Positions 2,978-55,687 of a DNA stretch of 64,000 nucleotides are shown here, piece after piece. The notes beneath the pieces were generated by a model. It worked only from the letters and a program-made list of their open reading frames with translations, did not search any database and had not been told where the DNA came from. Source of the stretch: Serratia ficaria. GTDB taxonomy: Bacteria > Pseudomonadota > Gammaproteobacteria > Enterobacterales > Enterobacteriaceae. The DNA lies in NCBI RefSeq assembly GCF_900187015.1, contig NZ_LT906479.1, positions 1,302,001 to 1,366,000 of the forward strand, written 5' to 3'. Each line of letters opens with the position of its first letter. Within the stretch, counting starts at the first letter, position 1. A program made the translations under genes and the position numbers.

Positions 2978-3218
2978 TCTCGTAGGTTCGTTCGATACAA
3001 TATTTATGCTGCCTATGATAGCGCGGAATGCCCGTCAGCGACAGATTGCGCGCAGCGGCATTTGATCATGCGATAACGGCATTTAACGGGGTTTCCGCCA
3101 CAGGCTATTTTTCATCCTGATTTCATTCAATGCTGAAAGGGAAAATCGATGGGAATACGCCGCTGAAAAACGCCGCTTCGCGGTCTAATCTGCCGGGGCG
3201 CTGCGGCGCCCCCGCCGG

Positions 3219-51182: not shown

Positions 51183-52847
51183 ATGAGTGAGGCTGAAGCC
51201 CGCCCAACCAATTTTATCCGTCAGATCGTCGATGAAGATCTGGCGTCAGGGAAACATACGTCGGTCCATACCCGTTTCCCGCCGGAGCCTAACGGCTACC
51301 TGCATATCGGCCACGCCAAATCCATTTGCCTGAACTTTGGCATCGCCAAAGACTATCAGGGTCAGTGCAACCTGCGTTTCGATGACACCAACCCGGTGAA
51401 AGAAGACATCGAGTTCGTGGATTCGATCAAGCACGACGTGGAGTGGCTGGGCTTCGAGTGGAGCGGCAACGTCCGTTACTCTTCCGATTATTTCGACCAG
51501 CTGCACCAGTATGCGGTGGAGCTGATCGCCAAGGGGCTGGCCTACGTCGACGAACTGTCGCCTGAGCAGATCCGCGAATACCGCGGCAGCCTGACCTCGC
51601 CGGGCAAAGACAGCCCGTACCGCGGCCGCAGCGTGGAAGAAAACCTGGCGCTGTTCGAGAAAATGCGCAACGGCGAATTCGCCGAGGGCACCGCCTGCCT
51701 GCGCGCCAAGATCGACATGGCTTCGCCGTTTATCGTGATGCGCGATCCGGTGCTGTACCGCATCAAGTTCGCCGAACACCACCAGACCGGCAACAAATGG
51801 TGCATCTACCCGATGTACGATTTCACCCACTGCATTTCCGATGCGCTGGAAGGGATCACCCATTCGCTGTGTACCCTGGAGTTCCAGGACAACCGCCGTC
51901 TGTATGACTGGGTGCTGGATAACATCTCCATTCCTTGCCACCCGCGCCAGTACGAGTTCTCGCGCCTCAATCTTGAATACGCCATCATGTCGAAGCGCAA
52001 GCTGAACCTGCTGGTGACCGAGAAGATTGTCGAAGGCTGGGATGATCCGCGCATGCCGACCGTATCCGGCCTGCGTCGCCGCGGCTACACCGCCGCTTCG
52101 ATCCGCGAGTTCTGCCAGCGTATCGGCGTGACCAAGCAGGACAACAACGTCGAAATGGTGGCGCTGGAATCCTGCATCCGCGACGATCTGAACGAGAACG
52201 CCCCGCGCGCCATGGCGGTGCTGGATCCGGTGAAAATCGTCATCGAGAACATGCGCGAAGGCGTGGAGCTGGTCACCATGCCAAACCACCCGAACAAGCC
52301 GGAGATGGGCAGCCGCGAAGTGCCGTTCAGCCGCGAGATTTATATCGACCGCGCCGACTTCCGCGAAGAAGCCAACAAGCAGTACAAGCGTCTGGTGCTG
52401 GGCAAGGAAGTGCGCCTGCGCAACGCCTACGTGATCAAGGCCGAGCGGGTCGAAAAGGACGCCGAAGGCGAAATCACCACCATCTTCTGCAGCTACGACG
52501 CCGAGACGCTGAGCAAGGATCCGGCCGACGGGCGCAAGGTGAAGGGCGTGATCCACTGGGTTTCCGCCGCGCACGCGCTGCCGGCCGAGATCCGCCTGTA
52601 CGATCGCCTGTTCAGCGTGCCGAACCCGGCGGCGGCGGAAGACTTCCTCGCCACCATCAACCCGGAATCGCTGATTATCAAGCACGGCTTCGTCGAGCCG
52701 AGCCTGGCGACGGCGCAGCCGGAGAAAGCCTATCAGTTCGAGCGCGAAGGCTATTTCTGCGCCGACAGCCGTTACTCTTCGGCCGAGCATCTGGTGTTCA
52801 ACCGCACCGTCGGCCTGCGCGACACCTGGGCTAAAATTGGGGCCTGA
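51183..52847 (+). CDS. glnS: Glutaminyl-tRNA synthetase GlnS
   Basis: The 554-residue class I synthetase has the E. coli length. The HIGH motif is H-I-G-H in [11 protein letters not shown], and the second motif M-S-K-R-K is near residue 270. It charges tRNA-Gln, two types of which are encoded at 40.1-40.6 kb. ATG 51183 gives [10 protein letters not shown] and was chosen over a longer frame. The 3' terminator overlaps the left end of a large inverted-repeat element. Confidence 0.98.
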
Positions 52848-52893
52848 GCCTTAACGTCGTCCCGGTAATGCATGGAAGCGCAGCTTAGGCTGT

Positions 52894-52929
52894 AATGCCA
52901 GTCAGTTAAGCCTGACTGGCATTTTTTTA
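52894..52929 (+). terminator. glnS intrinsic terminator
   Basis: ATGCCAGTCAG/CTGACTGGCAT makes a stem of about 11 bp followed by seven T. Its 5' arm is shared with the left terminal inverted repeat of the 884-bp element. Confidence 0.85.
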
Positions 52930-53072
52930 TCCAATTTCTGTACGCTCCGTGCAGGCGGAATTGCCGTAAATACCCTGCATTTCTCTGCTACCGCAATGTA
53001 CGGCAATTGGAGGGGCCGAAGGCGCGACCCCTCCACCCGCGCCTTCGCTTAACACCGTCTGCCCTGCGGGAA

Positions 53073-53152
53073 TTACTCGGCCCGTCCTGGGCCTCGCCCC
53101 TTCGGGGCCGCTGCAAGCAGCGTTCAAATCTGCTCCCGGCAGATTTGTCCTC
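53073..53152 (+). repeat. Left inner repeat unit, conserved 80-bp core
   Basis: This core holds three successive hairpins: GCCCC/GGGGC, GCTGC/GCAGC and AAATCTG/CAGATTT. It matches the complement of 53500-53579 at 76 of 80 positions. Likeness continues more weakly to about 53233, through a further hairpin AACCGGCC/GGCCGGTT. Confidence 0.75.
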
Positions 53153-53499
53153 GCTGCACCCGCGTTGTCGGGCGGGTCGGCTACGACAAACGTCCCTGTT
53201 AGTCTCGCCTCAACCGGCCTTCCCTGGCCGGTTGCCCCTGACAACGCCGTCTTGCTCGGCAGCCGGCGATGCGCGCCCAAGGTCAACACCCGAATCTGCA
53301 GCCACCGGGCAACTTGTCCCCTCCGTTTGATATTGCGTTATGGAAGACAGTGAAAATGATGGGATGAGCACGATGTTAGGCGCCCTTGAAGACGCCGAAC
53401 GCAGGAGCGGCGCATAGGCGAAACCGCCAAGGACGGCGGTTTCAGGCGAGACAGGCAGGGACGCCTGTCGTAGCCGGCCATGATGCGCTGAGACGGAGG

Positions 53500-53579
53500 G
53501 AGGACAAATCTGTCAGGAACAGATTTGAACGCTGCTTGCAGCGGCCCCGAAGGGGCGAGGCCCAGGATGGGCCGAGTAA
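53500..53579 (-). repeat. Right inner repeat unit, conserved 80-bp core
   Basis: The inverted partner of 53073-53152. In the weaker extension (53421-53442) the last hairpin reads AAACCGCC/GGCGGTTT, so the stem is kept while the sequence differs from the left unit, a sign that folding matters. Confidence 0.75.
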
Positions 53580-53885
53580 CGTTGGCACAGCCAACCGTCT
53601 GATTGGGCAAAGGCGCGGGTTGCAAGGGGCCGCGCCCACGGTCCCTTGCTCGGTCGAGGCGCGTGATCCTCATGGCGCATCTCCCCTTTATCGACCGAAA
53701 ATTTCACGGACGCCTGCAGAAAACGCTAACTGACAAGCATTACAGCTTAGGCTGCGCTTTTTTTATTTCATCAGCCGGTATTGTTTTTCGCGCTTTATTT
53801 TCCTTTCTGCCGCTTCATTCCCCTTCGTCATTTTAATCATCAATTGCTTGATACATGGCGTGATTTGCATAATCCTTTTTTATAT

Positions 53886-53900
53886 ATTCGCGATGCGAAT
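53886..53900. promoter_or_regulatory. Candidate NagC operator, distal to chiP
   Basis: ATTCGCGATGCGAAT is a perfect inverted repeat with a 3-base centre in an AT-rich flank. It fits the high-affinity NagC operator pattern (TTCGC-N3-GCGAA) known for chiP and chb in E. coli. Confidence 0.65.
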
Positions 53901-53912
53901 TAATGTCATTTG

Positions 53913-53924
53913 GAGAGCGCTCTC
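53913..53924. promoter_or_regulatory. 12-bp perfect palindrome, possible LacI-family operator
   Basis: GAGAGCGCTCTC is a perfect palindrome with a central CG step (AGCGCT), the shape of many LacI/GalR-family operators. It lies 12 bases from the distal NagC-type site. No LacI-family gene is in the window, so the binder is unknown. Confidence 0.4.
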
Positions 53925-54116
53925 ATATTTTTTCTTCTGGCTGACAATATTTAACGGGCTGAAACCATTAATCGTCTTTGGTTGACCTGATATTGATTTT
54001 TATTCTGATTTTATTGAATTTTTTATTCAACACTCTGTTTGCACAATGTCGTAACAAAATCTCATCGATATGTGCTCCTTGTCATAGTTTGACAAATCTC
54101 TGTCATTTTTCATTTG

Positions 54117-54138
54117 ATAATTCGCGACGCGAAAAATA
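54117..54138. promoter_or_regulatory. Candidate NagC operator, proximal to chiP
   Basis: The core TTCGCGACGCGAA (54121-54133) lies in an AT-rich flank about 150 bp before the chiP ATG. It has the same layout as the distal site, 231 bp away, which would allow looping. Confidence 0.65.
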
Positions 54139-54265
54139 GTCTGTCTGTAGCAATAAGTGCTGTGGGGATTCAACCCTGCGGCGATATTTTTTACCCGGTT
54201 GGGTTTTTTATTAGCGGTCGCGCAGGGCAGTGGTAAACACAGGCGGCTGCAACTTTTAAAGTTAA

Positions 54266-54283
54266 GTCAAAGAGGAATTTCAT
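54266..54283 (+). promoter_or_regulatory. ChiX sRNA pairing site and chiP ribosome-binding site
   Basis: GTCAAAGAGGAATTTCAT immediately precedes the chiP ATG and includes its ribosome site AGAGGA. It is the exact complement of the chiP-pairing stretch of E. coli ChiX as I recall it, so ChiX would block translation unless chitin-induced decoy RNA removes it. The chiX gene itself is not in the window. Confidence 0.75.
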
Positions 54284-55687
54284 ATGGGTACGCACGGTGC
54301 TCAGCGTAAAACGCTGGCGCTCGCTGTCGCGGGCGCGCTGTTGGGAACAGGGTTTGCCATGGCCCCTGGGGCGAAAGCCGCAGGGTTTATCGATGATTCC
54401 ACGCTGACCGGCGGCATTTATTACTGGCAACGTGAGCGTGACCGCAAAGATCTCGACCCGACCAGCGACGATTACAATAAATACACCACCAACCTGTCGC
54501 ACTCCACCGCCAACCTGAGCCTGGACTTCGCCTCGGGCTACGCCTGGGACATGTTCGGTCTGGACGTCGGGGCCTTTACCGCTATCGAGCTGGCCGAGTC
54601 CAGCGCCAGCGGCCACCCGAATGAAATCGCCTTTTCCTCGAAAAACCGGACCTACGACGAAGACTATTCCGGCGATAAAGGCGGCATCAGCCTGTATAAA
54701 GCCGCCGGTAAATTCAAATACGGCCCGATCTGGGCGCGCGCCGGTTACATCCAACCCAGCGGCCAGACGCTGATCGCCCCGCACTGGAGCTTTATGCCGG
54801 GAACCTATCGCGGCGCGGAGGCGGGCGCCAACTTTGACTACGGCGACGCCGGCGCTCTGAGCTTCTCCTACATGTGGGCGGACAAATACAAGGCGCCGTG
54901 GCATATCGAGATGGATGACTTCCGCCAAAACGATAAAACAACCGGCGTCTCCTATCTGCACTCTTTGGGCGCCAAGTACGACTTCAAAAACGATCTGGTG
55001 TTGGAAGCCGCCTTTGGTCAGGCGGAAGGCTATGTGAATCAGTATTTCACCAAGGCATCCTACAAATTCGACCTGCTGGGCAATCCGCTGACCACCAGCT
55101 ACCAGTTCTACGGTGCGGAAGACCGCATCGGCGACAAGAACGATCCGAACAGCATCTACGACGGCCTGGCCTGGCTGCAGGCACTGACCTTCGGCTATAC
55201 CACCGGTCAGTTCAACTGGCGTCTGGAAGGCACCATGGTCAAGGCGGAAGGCAATCAGGGCTTCTTCCTGCAGCGCATGACGCCGACCTACGCCTCTTCC
55301 AACGGCCGCCTCGACGTGTGGTGGGATAACCGCTCCGACTTCAACGCCAACGGCGAGAAGGCGGTCTACGCCGGCGTGATGTACGACCTGAGCAACTGGA
55401 ACCTGCCGGGCATGGCGGTCGGCGGCTCCTACGTCTACGCCTGGGACGCCAAGCCGAGCACCAACCCGATTTACGATCAGAGCCAGCGCCTGAAAGAGAG
55501 CGCCTGGAGCCTGGACGCGCTGTACACCATCCAGGAAGGGCGCGCCAAAGGCACGCTGCTCAAGCTGCACTACACCCAATACGATAACCACACCAATATC
55601 CCGAGCTGGGGCGGCGGTTACGGCAACATCTTCCAGGACGAGAAAGACGTCAAATTTATGGTCATCGCGCCATTCACCATTTTCTGA
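54284..55687 (+). CDS. chiP: Chitoporin ChiP
   Basis: The 467-residue OprD-family outer-membrane barrel admits chitooligosaccharides. A signal peptide ends about residue 32 (G-A-K-A before A-G-F-I-D-D). The rest is strand-like with many aromatic residues and ends V-I-A-P-F-T-I-F, a terminal Phe fitting BAM recognition. It heads the chiP-chiQ-chitobiase unit and is controlled by NagC-type operators and ChiX. Confidence 0.95.

Follow-up and report, generated by a model that had tools for sequence, protein, structure and literature searches.

The element in positions 52893..53742 of the window (the whole stretch of 64,000 nucleotides of Serratia ficaria which we have analysed) is a composite MITE of 850 bp, to which no strand is assigned. 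Its terminal repeats, a 12-bp target duplication, the comparison of 36 copies and an uninterrupted site in relatives establish, at the level of sequence comparison, that it is a non-autonomous transposable element of IS4 type, inserted at the apex of the glnS terminator hairpin. It contains two kinds of structured modules, A and B, with GGA in hairpin loops. We consider this anatomy as a whole (a mobile element, a target at hairpin apices, the IS4 type and nested modules of RNA type) as almost certain. We also lean, less strongly, towards a further interpretation: the element would be a mobile carrier of CsrA-type RNA modules and possibly a mobile regulatory RNA. A preliminary description of the region had suggested either a non-autonomous mobile element or a paired structured RNA repeat. 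The former can now be named as an IS4-type MITE with a target duplication of 11–12 bp, the latter is supported by covariation in both modules, and the two readings are compatible: the structured modules are the cargo of the mobile element.

Site and boundaries of the element

The host genome has 5.2 Mb in a single contig. The element lies between an open reading frame which ends at 52847 and another one which starts at 54284, named glnS and chiP in the preliminary description. There the element was placed in 52876..53759 (884 bp) from its inverted repeats, which we reproduce exactly, with 29 paired positions out of 33 in the ends and 76 out of 80 in the cores. Its extent has to be reduced to the 850 bp given above, as shown by the terminal repeats and the target duplication; the outer portion of these 33-bp ends belongs to the host and consists mainly of CAGCTTAGGCTG. 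These ends are in fact a mixture of a 16-bp terminal repeat and the 12-bp sequence CAGCTTAGGCTG, which is found as a direct repeat on both sides and owes its palindromic form to its position at the tip of the glnS terminator hairpin, AAGCGCAG-CTTAGG-CTGCGCTT. The left copy of this duplication (52881..52892) corresponds to the hairpin apex and is uninterrupted in the related locus L191; the right copy (53743..53754) is followed by the 3' arm of the old terminator and its T run. Neither copy has a strand assigned. The left end had been described as fused with the glnS terminator; it appears so because the element has been inserted into the apex of that terminator.

The true terminal inverted repeats are TAATGCCAGTCAGTTA on the left (52893..52908, plus strand) and TAATGCTTGTCAGTTA, read inward, on the right (53727..53742, minus strand), alike at 14 of 16 positions. 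A repeat search gives the inverted arms as 53073-53155/53497-53579 (83 nt, 94%), 53175-53233/53421-53479 (59 nt, 78%) and 52876-52908/53727-53759. The hairpins said to be kept with changed sequence, AACCGGCC/GGCCGGTT against AAACCGCC/GGCGGTTT, are present, and the stems of the two arms differ by compensatory pairs. A coding role was set aside: the open reading frames across the element are short and found on both strands, the longest closed one having 120 amino acids. As far as examined there is no conserved protein among them. Group IIC introns likewise insert at terminators, but a group II intron was rejected here: in 52000–54500 there is no group II match at E up to 1 and no long reading frame, and a target duplication is present.

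Copies and target sites

The element is not unique to this genome, since 26 of the 41 genomes searched (its own included) match part of the 884 bp. Among the loci fetched we found 40 candidate pairs of terminal repeats; four were false, which leaves 36 copies in nine genomes. Similarity of the flanks puts 13 of them in five orthologous groups, so that the copies represent 28 sites. The S. ficaria genome has the copy of the window, a second one in 2178546–2179248, in the terminator behind a gene which we take to be kdsA, and short ones near 2203062 and 3828857; there is also a weak match to a single end near 5111531.

Relatives were compared in search of empty sites and target duplications, as the preliminary description had proposed, and both were found. 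The glnS site was inspected in 29 loci; 5 of them are unreadable at the gene end and none of the 24 readable ones has an insert. In L191 the same terminator is uninterrupted: an ungapped block of 47 bases, 43 of them identical, crosses the joined flanks of the window copy. Target duplications are perfect in 16 of the 36 copies, with a length of 11–12 bp; 7 copies have one mismatch and 13 are worse. When the targets of the 16 perfect cases are rebuilt, all of them turn out to be hairpins, with stems of 8–14 bp and a centre at most 2 bp away from that of the duplication. These cases correspond to 14 sites, since L043, L053 and L067 are orthologous. As a background, a stem of at least 8 bp is found at 1.4% of 20,000 random positions of the window. 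On one strand or the other, 13 of the 16 target hairpins have a T-rich 3' end, with 6 T or more in 13 nt. The three exceptions form one orthologous group, so that the resemblance to an intrinsic terminator holds for most targets but not for every one. The combination of a hairpin-apex target with a duplication of 11–12 bp is also of specific interest for the biology of transposition.

Gene ends appear on both sides of 29 of the 36 copies, apparently convergent, according to an ORF test which is crude in a GC-rich genome. The same test was too crude for any conclusion about the orientation of the copies relative to the interrupted gene. In the open-licence literature, searched by title or abstract start, we found no report of this MITE or of RrB modules in MITEs.

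Relationship with IS4

Another genome of the genus (G021) has an insertion sequence of 1412 bp whose ends are TAATGCCGATCAGTTAAG and TAATGCTTGTCAGTTAAG, one of which is identical to the right terminal repeat of the element. Its target is palindromic and is duplicated over 11–12 bp in the five copies measured. The 439-amino-acid product matches the NCBIfam model 'IS4 family transposase' with 275 bits and is 53% identical to InsG of E. coli. The kind of ends, the type of target and the duplication are thus common to this insertion sequence and to our element. In E. coli K-12, one end of IS4 is identical to the left end of the element over its first 18 bases and the copy inspected has a target duplication of 12 bp; unlike our copies, it shows by eye no evident hairpin at the target. 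Terminal repeats of IS4 type and a duplication of 11–12 bp are shared with IS4-family insertion sequences and MITEs in general. The element differs from them by the absence of a transposase, by its composite inverted and structured cargo and by its insertion at hairpin apices. It has no transposase gene of its own, as no closed reading frame exceeds 120 amino acids, and its genome has no match to PF01609 (DDE_Tnp_1) from which a partner transposase might come; 9 of the 30 genomes of the genus have one. The partner could have been lost from this genome.

A 1.9 Mb genome of the same genus (G006) has at least 73 DDE_Tnp_1 matches among 177 candidates, of which 73 were scored. Those listed have in-frame stops, mostly TAG, in nearly every case: it is a case of mass insertion-sequence decay in a small genome.

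Size classes and orientation

By size the 36 copies comprise 8 short (225–295 bp), 3 intermediate and 25 full ones. Judged also from their sizes, 11 of the full copies have no module B, 12 have one and 2 have two, the window copy among the latter; the alignment of the 25 full copies agrees for the rows listed. Module B is found at either of two symmetric sites, one in each arm. Orthologous sites, with flanks 88–99% identical over about 480 bp, may differ by one module B (L053/L041, L058/L042, L059/L016 and L057/L044) or by the entire middle (L067/L043, L065/L059 and L066/L056). Since module B is variable at orthologous sites, the inner pairing of 76 out of 80 positions corresponds to two copies of a cassette-like unit placed on inverted arms. 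The short forms read like products of a deletion between AGGGGCC repeats. In one of them, of 295 bp (L007, G000:C1:2203062-2203357), only the 3' tail of module B is left, as would result from a deletion of the middle. Opposite orientations of the element occur at two orthologous sites: one is represented by the pairs L041/L043, L041/L067, L043/L053 and L053/L067, the other by L056/L066.

Module B

Module B has a length of 78 bp and forms four hairpins. It is found in the left arm in 53072..53149 (minus strand), a site which is empty in other copies, and in the right arm in 53503..53580 (plus strand), where it is missing from the sister copy L002. Both arms match our model R1, in whose training set they are included. 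R1 was built from an alignment of 26 copies, selected among the 43 hits of the fetched loci; E. coli rrnB is not among these 26 rows. The four hairpins are preserved in 95.0% of the cells and 11 of the 25 pairs have changed on both sides; shuffles give 4.1 and none of 500 reaches the observed value. R1 hits 94 of 247 genomes drawn from the order and 94 of 229 drawn from the class (84 of 196 genera), the S. ficaria genome being counted in both. In the 117 distinct matches GGA is present in loop 1 in 112 cases and in loop 4 in 100, against 15 in loop 2 and 10 in loop 3, two loops which are only a partial control, as the model itself favours GGA.

The spacer between T1 and T2 of E. coli rrnB matches R1 with 64.6 bits, 80 nt after the 5S gene, and the rRNA trailer of the S. 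ficaria genome with 81.9 bits. To judge from sequence and secondary structure, module B is homologous to RrB of E. coli. It has the hairpin architecture with GGA loops of the RrA/RrB/RrF tRNA-linked repeats (TLRs) which follow the rRNA operons of this species. It differs from them by its location after glnS and inside a MITE, outside any rRNA or tRNA operon, and by its presence in one or two copies, which form an inverted pair when there are two. Given this location, we call it an RrB homolog and not a TLR proper. PMC8144298 counts the rrnB unit as one of 22 in E. coli, first described in 1978 and with a function thus far unknown as of 2021. It reports that RrB-short binds CsrA with an overall KD of about 100 nM, with no shift in the tested range for a mutant in three GGA, that RrB also binds Hfq, and that its deletion or overexpression has modest effects only. 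The same paper gives CsrA scores below 0.01 to the 19 other E. coli repeats of this kind.

We also studied the surroundings of 58 R1 loci outside the S. ficaria genome, which are the best matches and not a random sample. In 25 of them the match is preceded by a tRNA, tmRNA or 5S gene of the same strand, at a distance of 47–95 nt (median 79). Of the others, 3 are located upstream of a stable-RNA gene with the same direction, a single one faces such a gene of the opposite strand, another is at a greater distance, and the remaining 28 have none in the flanks covered. The genes followed are those of tRNA-Ser, Lys, Gln, Glu, Arg and Pro, tmRNA and 5S, both in the order and in the wider class. The strand of module B has been assigned because of this position after stable-RNA genes. 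Counting G-U against A-C pairs was tried for the same purpose and gave only a slight excess (63 against 44; shuffles 254 and 265). In a tRNA-Lys cluster of the S. ficaria genome R1 also matches two of the three RtT (RF00391) with 44.5 bits (L184 1501-2101, G000:C1:1409344 and 1409777); these relatives have kept the fold and lost GGA from their loops.

Another Rfam entry close to module B is AaHKsRNA22 (RF02902, Aggregatibacter sRNA 22), whose model can be aligned with it from end to end. The scores, 37.4 bits for the left arm and 37.1 for the right one, are below the gathering score of 39.8; the relative L122 reaches 40.1. We found no paper with the term AaHKsRNA22 in the open-licence literature, and the literature searched gave no function for this entry or for TwoAYGGAY.

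Some tRNA-linked loci have a peculiar organization. In L133, L151, L162, L166, L177 and others, module B appears by eye inside the T-loop-like part of a repeated tRNA 3' end (ggttc-GAC...AAT-cc plus the acceptor end). In several of them the inverse complement of the tRNA 3' end precedes module B, so that a palindrome is formed. In L163 (1391-1579, minus strand) the R1 match overlaps a match to group II intron D1-D4 (RF02001), with another group II match (RF01998) nearby.

Module A

Module A is a tandem pair of hairpins with GGA loops, found in 53175..53237 (left arm, minus strand) and in 53417..53479 (right arm, plus strand). Both match model R2, which includes them in its training set. They also match the TwoAYGGAY RNA motif of Rfam (RF01731), with 32.1 bits for the left arm and 36.2 for the right one. 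The tandem pair of GGA-loop hairpins is the feature in common; unlike the motif proper, module A is located in a mobile element and scores below the gathering value of 43. TwoAYGGAY and CsrB belong to the same Rfam clan, CL00106. A table in PMC2864571 includes TwoAYGGAY as a candidate RNA.

The loci fetched from the genus contain 57 hits of module A (23 distinct), with GGA in the first loop of all 57 and in the second loop of 56. In an alignment of 13 arrays from both arms the stems are kept at 98.4% of the cells. The pairs changed on both sides, 6, are little more than in shuffles (4.9), and pair types are not above shuffles, because the arms form only two groups; shuffles are exceeded by the number of cells with changes on both sides (33 against 13.4). 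R2 finds module A in 15 of the 30 genomes of the genus, mostly as inverted pairs about 230–240 nt apart, and in 6 further genomes among 247 drawn from the order, from 6 other genera. A set of 16 matches (14 distinct, two from the S. ficaria genome) has changes on both sides at 16 of the 19 pairs, compared with 9.3 in shuffles, and none of 500 shuffles reaches this number; the alignment has been fitted to the structure of the model and helix 3 is paired in just 77.8% of the cells. All 16 matches have GGA in both loops, with the second hairpin of L232 not properly aligned. It should be taken into account that both R1 and R2 contain GGA, hence the searches favour it. Among the untrimmed first loops 13 of 15 fit CANGGANG, which we take to be the CsrA/RsmA consensus.

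An exact 36-base pattern of module A is present in 19 stretches of the named genome collection, all of them from Serratia. R2 found nothing above chance in E. coli rrnB and csrB, in the rrn trailer of the S. ficaria genome or in L009-L012. Two genomes of other genera, G237 (L228, L235, L238 and L241) and G087 (L229, L236 and L239), have repeats with pairs of GGA hairpins like those of module A, in surroundings unlike the Serratia MITE.

Folding and transcription

Each module A and each module B contributes two GGA loops, which gives four per strand in the window copy, and either strand has one A+B array of such loops in its 3' half. Counted in the window sequence alone, four loops per strand are not above dinucleotide shuffles (means 2.2 and 2.1, maximum 6); the case therefore rests on the comparison between copies.

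The full-length RNA is predicted to fold arm to arm. For the plus strand the energy is -500.5 kcal/mol, against -368.5 when spans are limited to 120 nt; for the minus strand the values are -512.2 and -364.9. In the equilibrium fold of the window copy this pairing hides three of the four GGA sites of the modules on each strand. Only the first hairpin of module A would remain open (0.70–1.00), together with some GGA outside the modules. In full transcripts of the 25 full copies the loops predicted as open are 45 of 48 for A1, 0 of 50 for A2, 2 of 5 for B1 and 12 of 15 for B4; in their 3' halves the numbers become 48 of 48, 44 of 50, 5 of 5 and 15 of 15. These loops were located by pattern, which missed some copies, above all for B1. 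Module B is hidden only in the two copies which have it on both arms. The window copy is one of them and may therefore be the least active form. The exposure of these sites would be influenced by folding during transcription or by processing.

A scan of the element found no sigma-70-like promoter, and the three terminator-like sites of the scanned region are not above the shuffle mean of 2.4. The same scan gave the hairpin of the left end (52894..52923, plus strand), with a 12-bp stem and a T run. It reads away from glnS, so that this gene should still terminate. Tandem hairpins with GGA loops are also found in the CsrB/RsmB sRNAs (RF00018), members of the same clan as TwoAYGGAY. CsrB differs by its number of CsrA motifs, put at about 18 in PMC8144298, whereas here each strand has 4 module sites and the search for a promoter was negative. 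Neither R1 nor R2 matches E. coli csrB. Six E. coli stretches with intergenic regions which PMC8144298 calls CsrB-like were also tried. R1 has no match there up to E = 1 and R2 has none either, its three matches (E 0.31–0.74) being found in L188, L009 and L010; a connection with these regions was therefore abandoned.

Possible function and alternative explanations

If the element is a carrier of CsrA-type modules, its copies, placed in terminators at the 3' ends of genes, would be transcribed either through leaky termination or from their far side. The result would be a 3'-UTR or an antisense RNA with GGA hairpins. Such hairpins might bind CsrA (RsmA) and either titrate it weakly, as RrB may do, or tether it to that transcript. 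We give about even chances to the binding of CsrA by transcripts of such copies. In the window copy the left-end hairpin probably restores the termination of glnS, so that the interior of the element is probably little read. The copy at 2178546 has the opposite orientation, and there the upstream gene would read into the element.

Several of the same observations agree with a purely selfish composite MITE, in which the modules would be passengers captured from TLR/RrB-like and TwoAYGGAY-like repeats, GGA would look conserved through recent shared ancestry and RNA would hardly be made. Insertion into terminators does little harm, the more so as the left end brings a new terminator-like hairpin; no promoter was found; long-range folding hides GGA sites; 29 of 36 copies apparently lie between convergent gene ends, by the crude ORF test; module B and the entire middle vary between orthologous copies, and 8 of 36 copies are short (225–295 bp). 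What this explanation does not account for are the module A matches from other genera, which have compensatory changes in the stems and retain GGA in otherwise different surroundings. Drift in a passenger would not spare the loops, a point which is weakened by the use of GGA-containing models to find the A and B matches. We consider a purely selfish origin as rather doubtful.

The hairpins could also act as structures without CsrA, by protecting 3' ends, by insulating transcription or as a DNA cruciform which aids transposition. This would agree with the very stable local and long-range folding, with copies at the 3' ends of genes and with the opposite orientations at two orthologous sites, but it leaves unexplained why GGA is present in both loops of module A in 16 of 16 matches and why, in module B, it is found in loops 1 and 4 (112 and 100 of 117) so much more often than in loops 2 and 3 (15 and 10 of 117). 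We therefore regard it as quite improbable. An origin as a remnant of a chromosomal inversion, one of the proposals of the preliminary description, or as a chance pair of repeats can practically be dismissed: the nested inverted symmetry would fit and two orthologous sites do hold the element in opposite orientations, but the element is multicopy, and the target duplications and the uninterrupted sites in relatives refute it.

TLRs, TwoAYGGAY and AaHKsRNA22 become linked by the element, since two modules with GGA hairpins are found side by side in a Serratia MITE. If the binding of CsrA is true, the element provides a route for spreading CsrA sites by transposition.

Module B in a second repeat

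Module B is also contained in a second repeat, which has a length of about 150 bp and the ends TATACYCTA...TTGCAG and CTGCAACTTGAA...GGGTATA. It is present in E. coli (L009, L010 and L012), in a Salmonella plasmid (L011) and in loci of the genus such as L004, L030 and L032. When 31 hits of module B were scanned for these ends, some had both, some had one and some had none. We assume that this is the RSA repeat. It carries module B like our MITE, but its ends are unrelated and it is far smaller.

A wider proposal can be made, which we put forward as tentative: transposons of Enterobacterales would be mobile carriers of CsrA-binding RNA. The GGA modules of RrB/TLR trailers and of TwoAYGGAY-like repeats would have been captured by at least two unrelated families of MITEs. 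The Serratia family, inserted at terminator apices, would place CsrA sites readable from either strand in the 3' ends of genes, changing the Csr output or the transcript which hosts them.

Two different B modules in tandem are found in each of two E. coli repeats (L009 and L010), located between rpiA and argP in one case and upstream of gyrA in the other. In L009 they occupy 2889-2962 and 3001-3080, the same as in L010, and their stems differ by compensatory changes. In the Salmonella plasmid module B lies between ybtP and ybtA, in a yersiniabactin cluster (L011 3010-3087). A search of PLSDB with a 201-bp A+B query matched 170 plasmids, of which 168 are from Salmonella and 146 are typed as conjugative.
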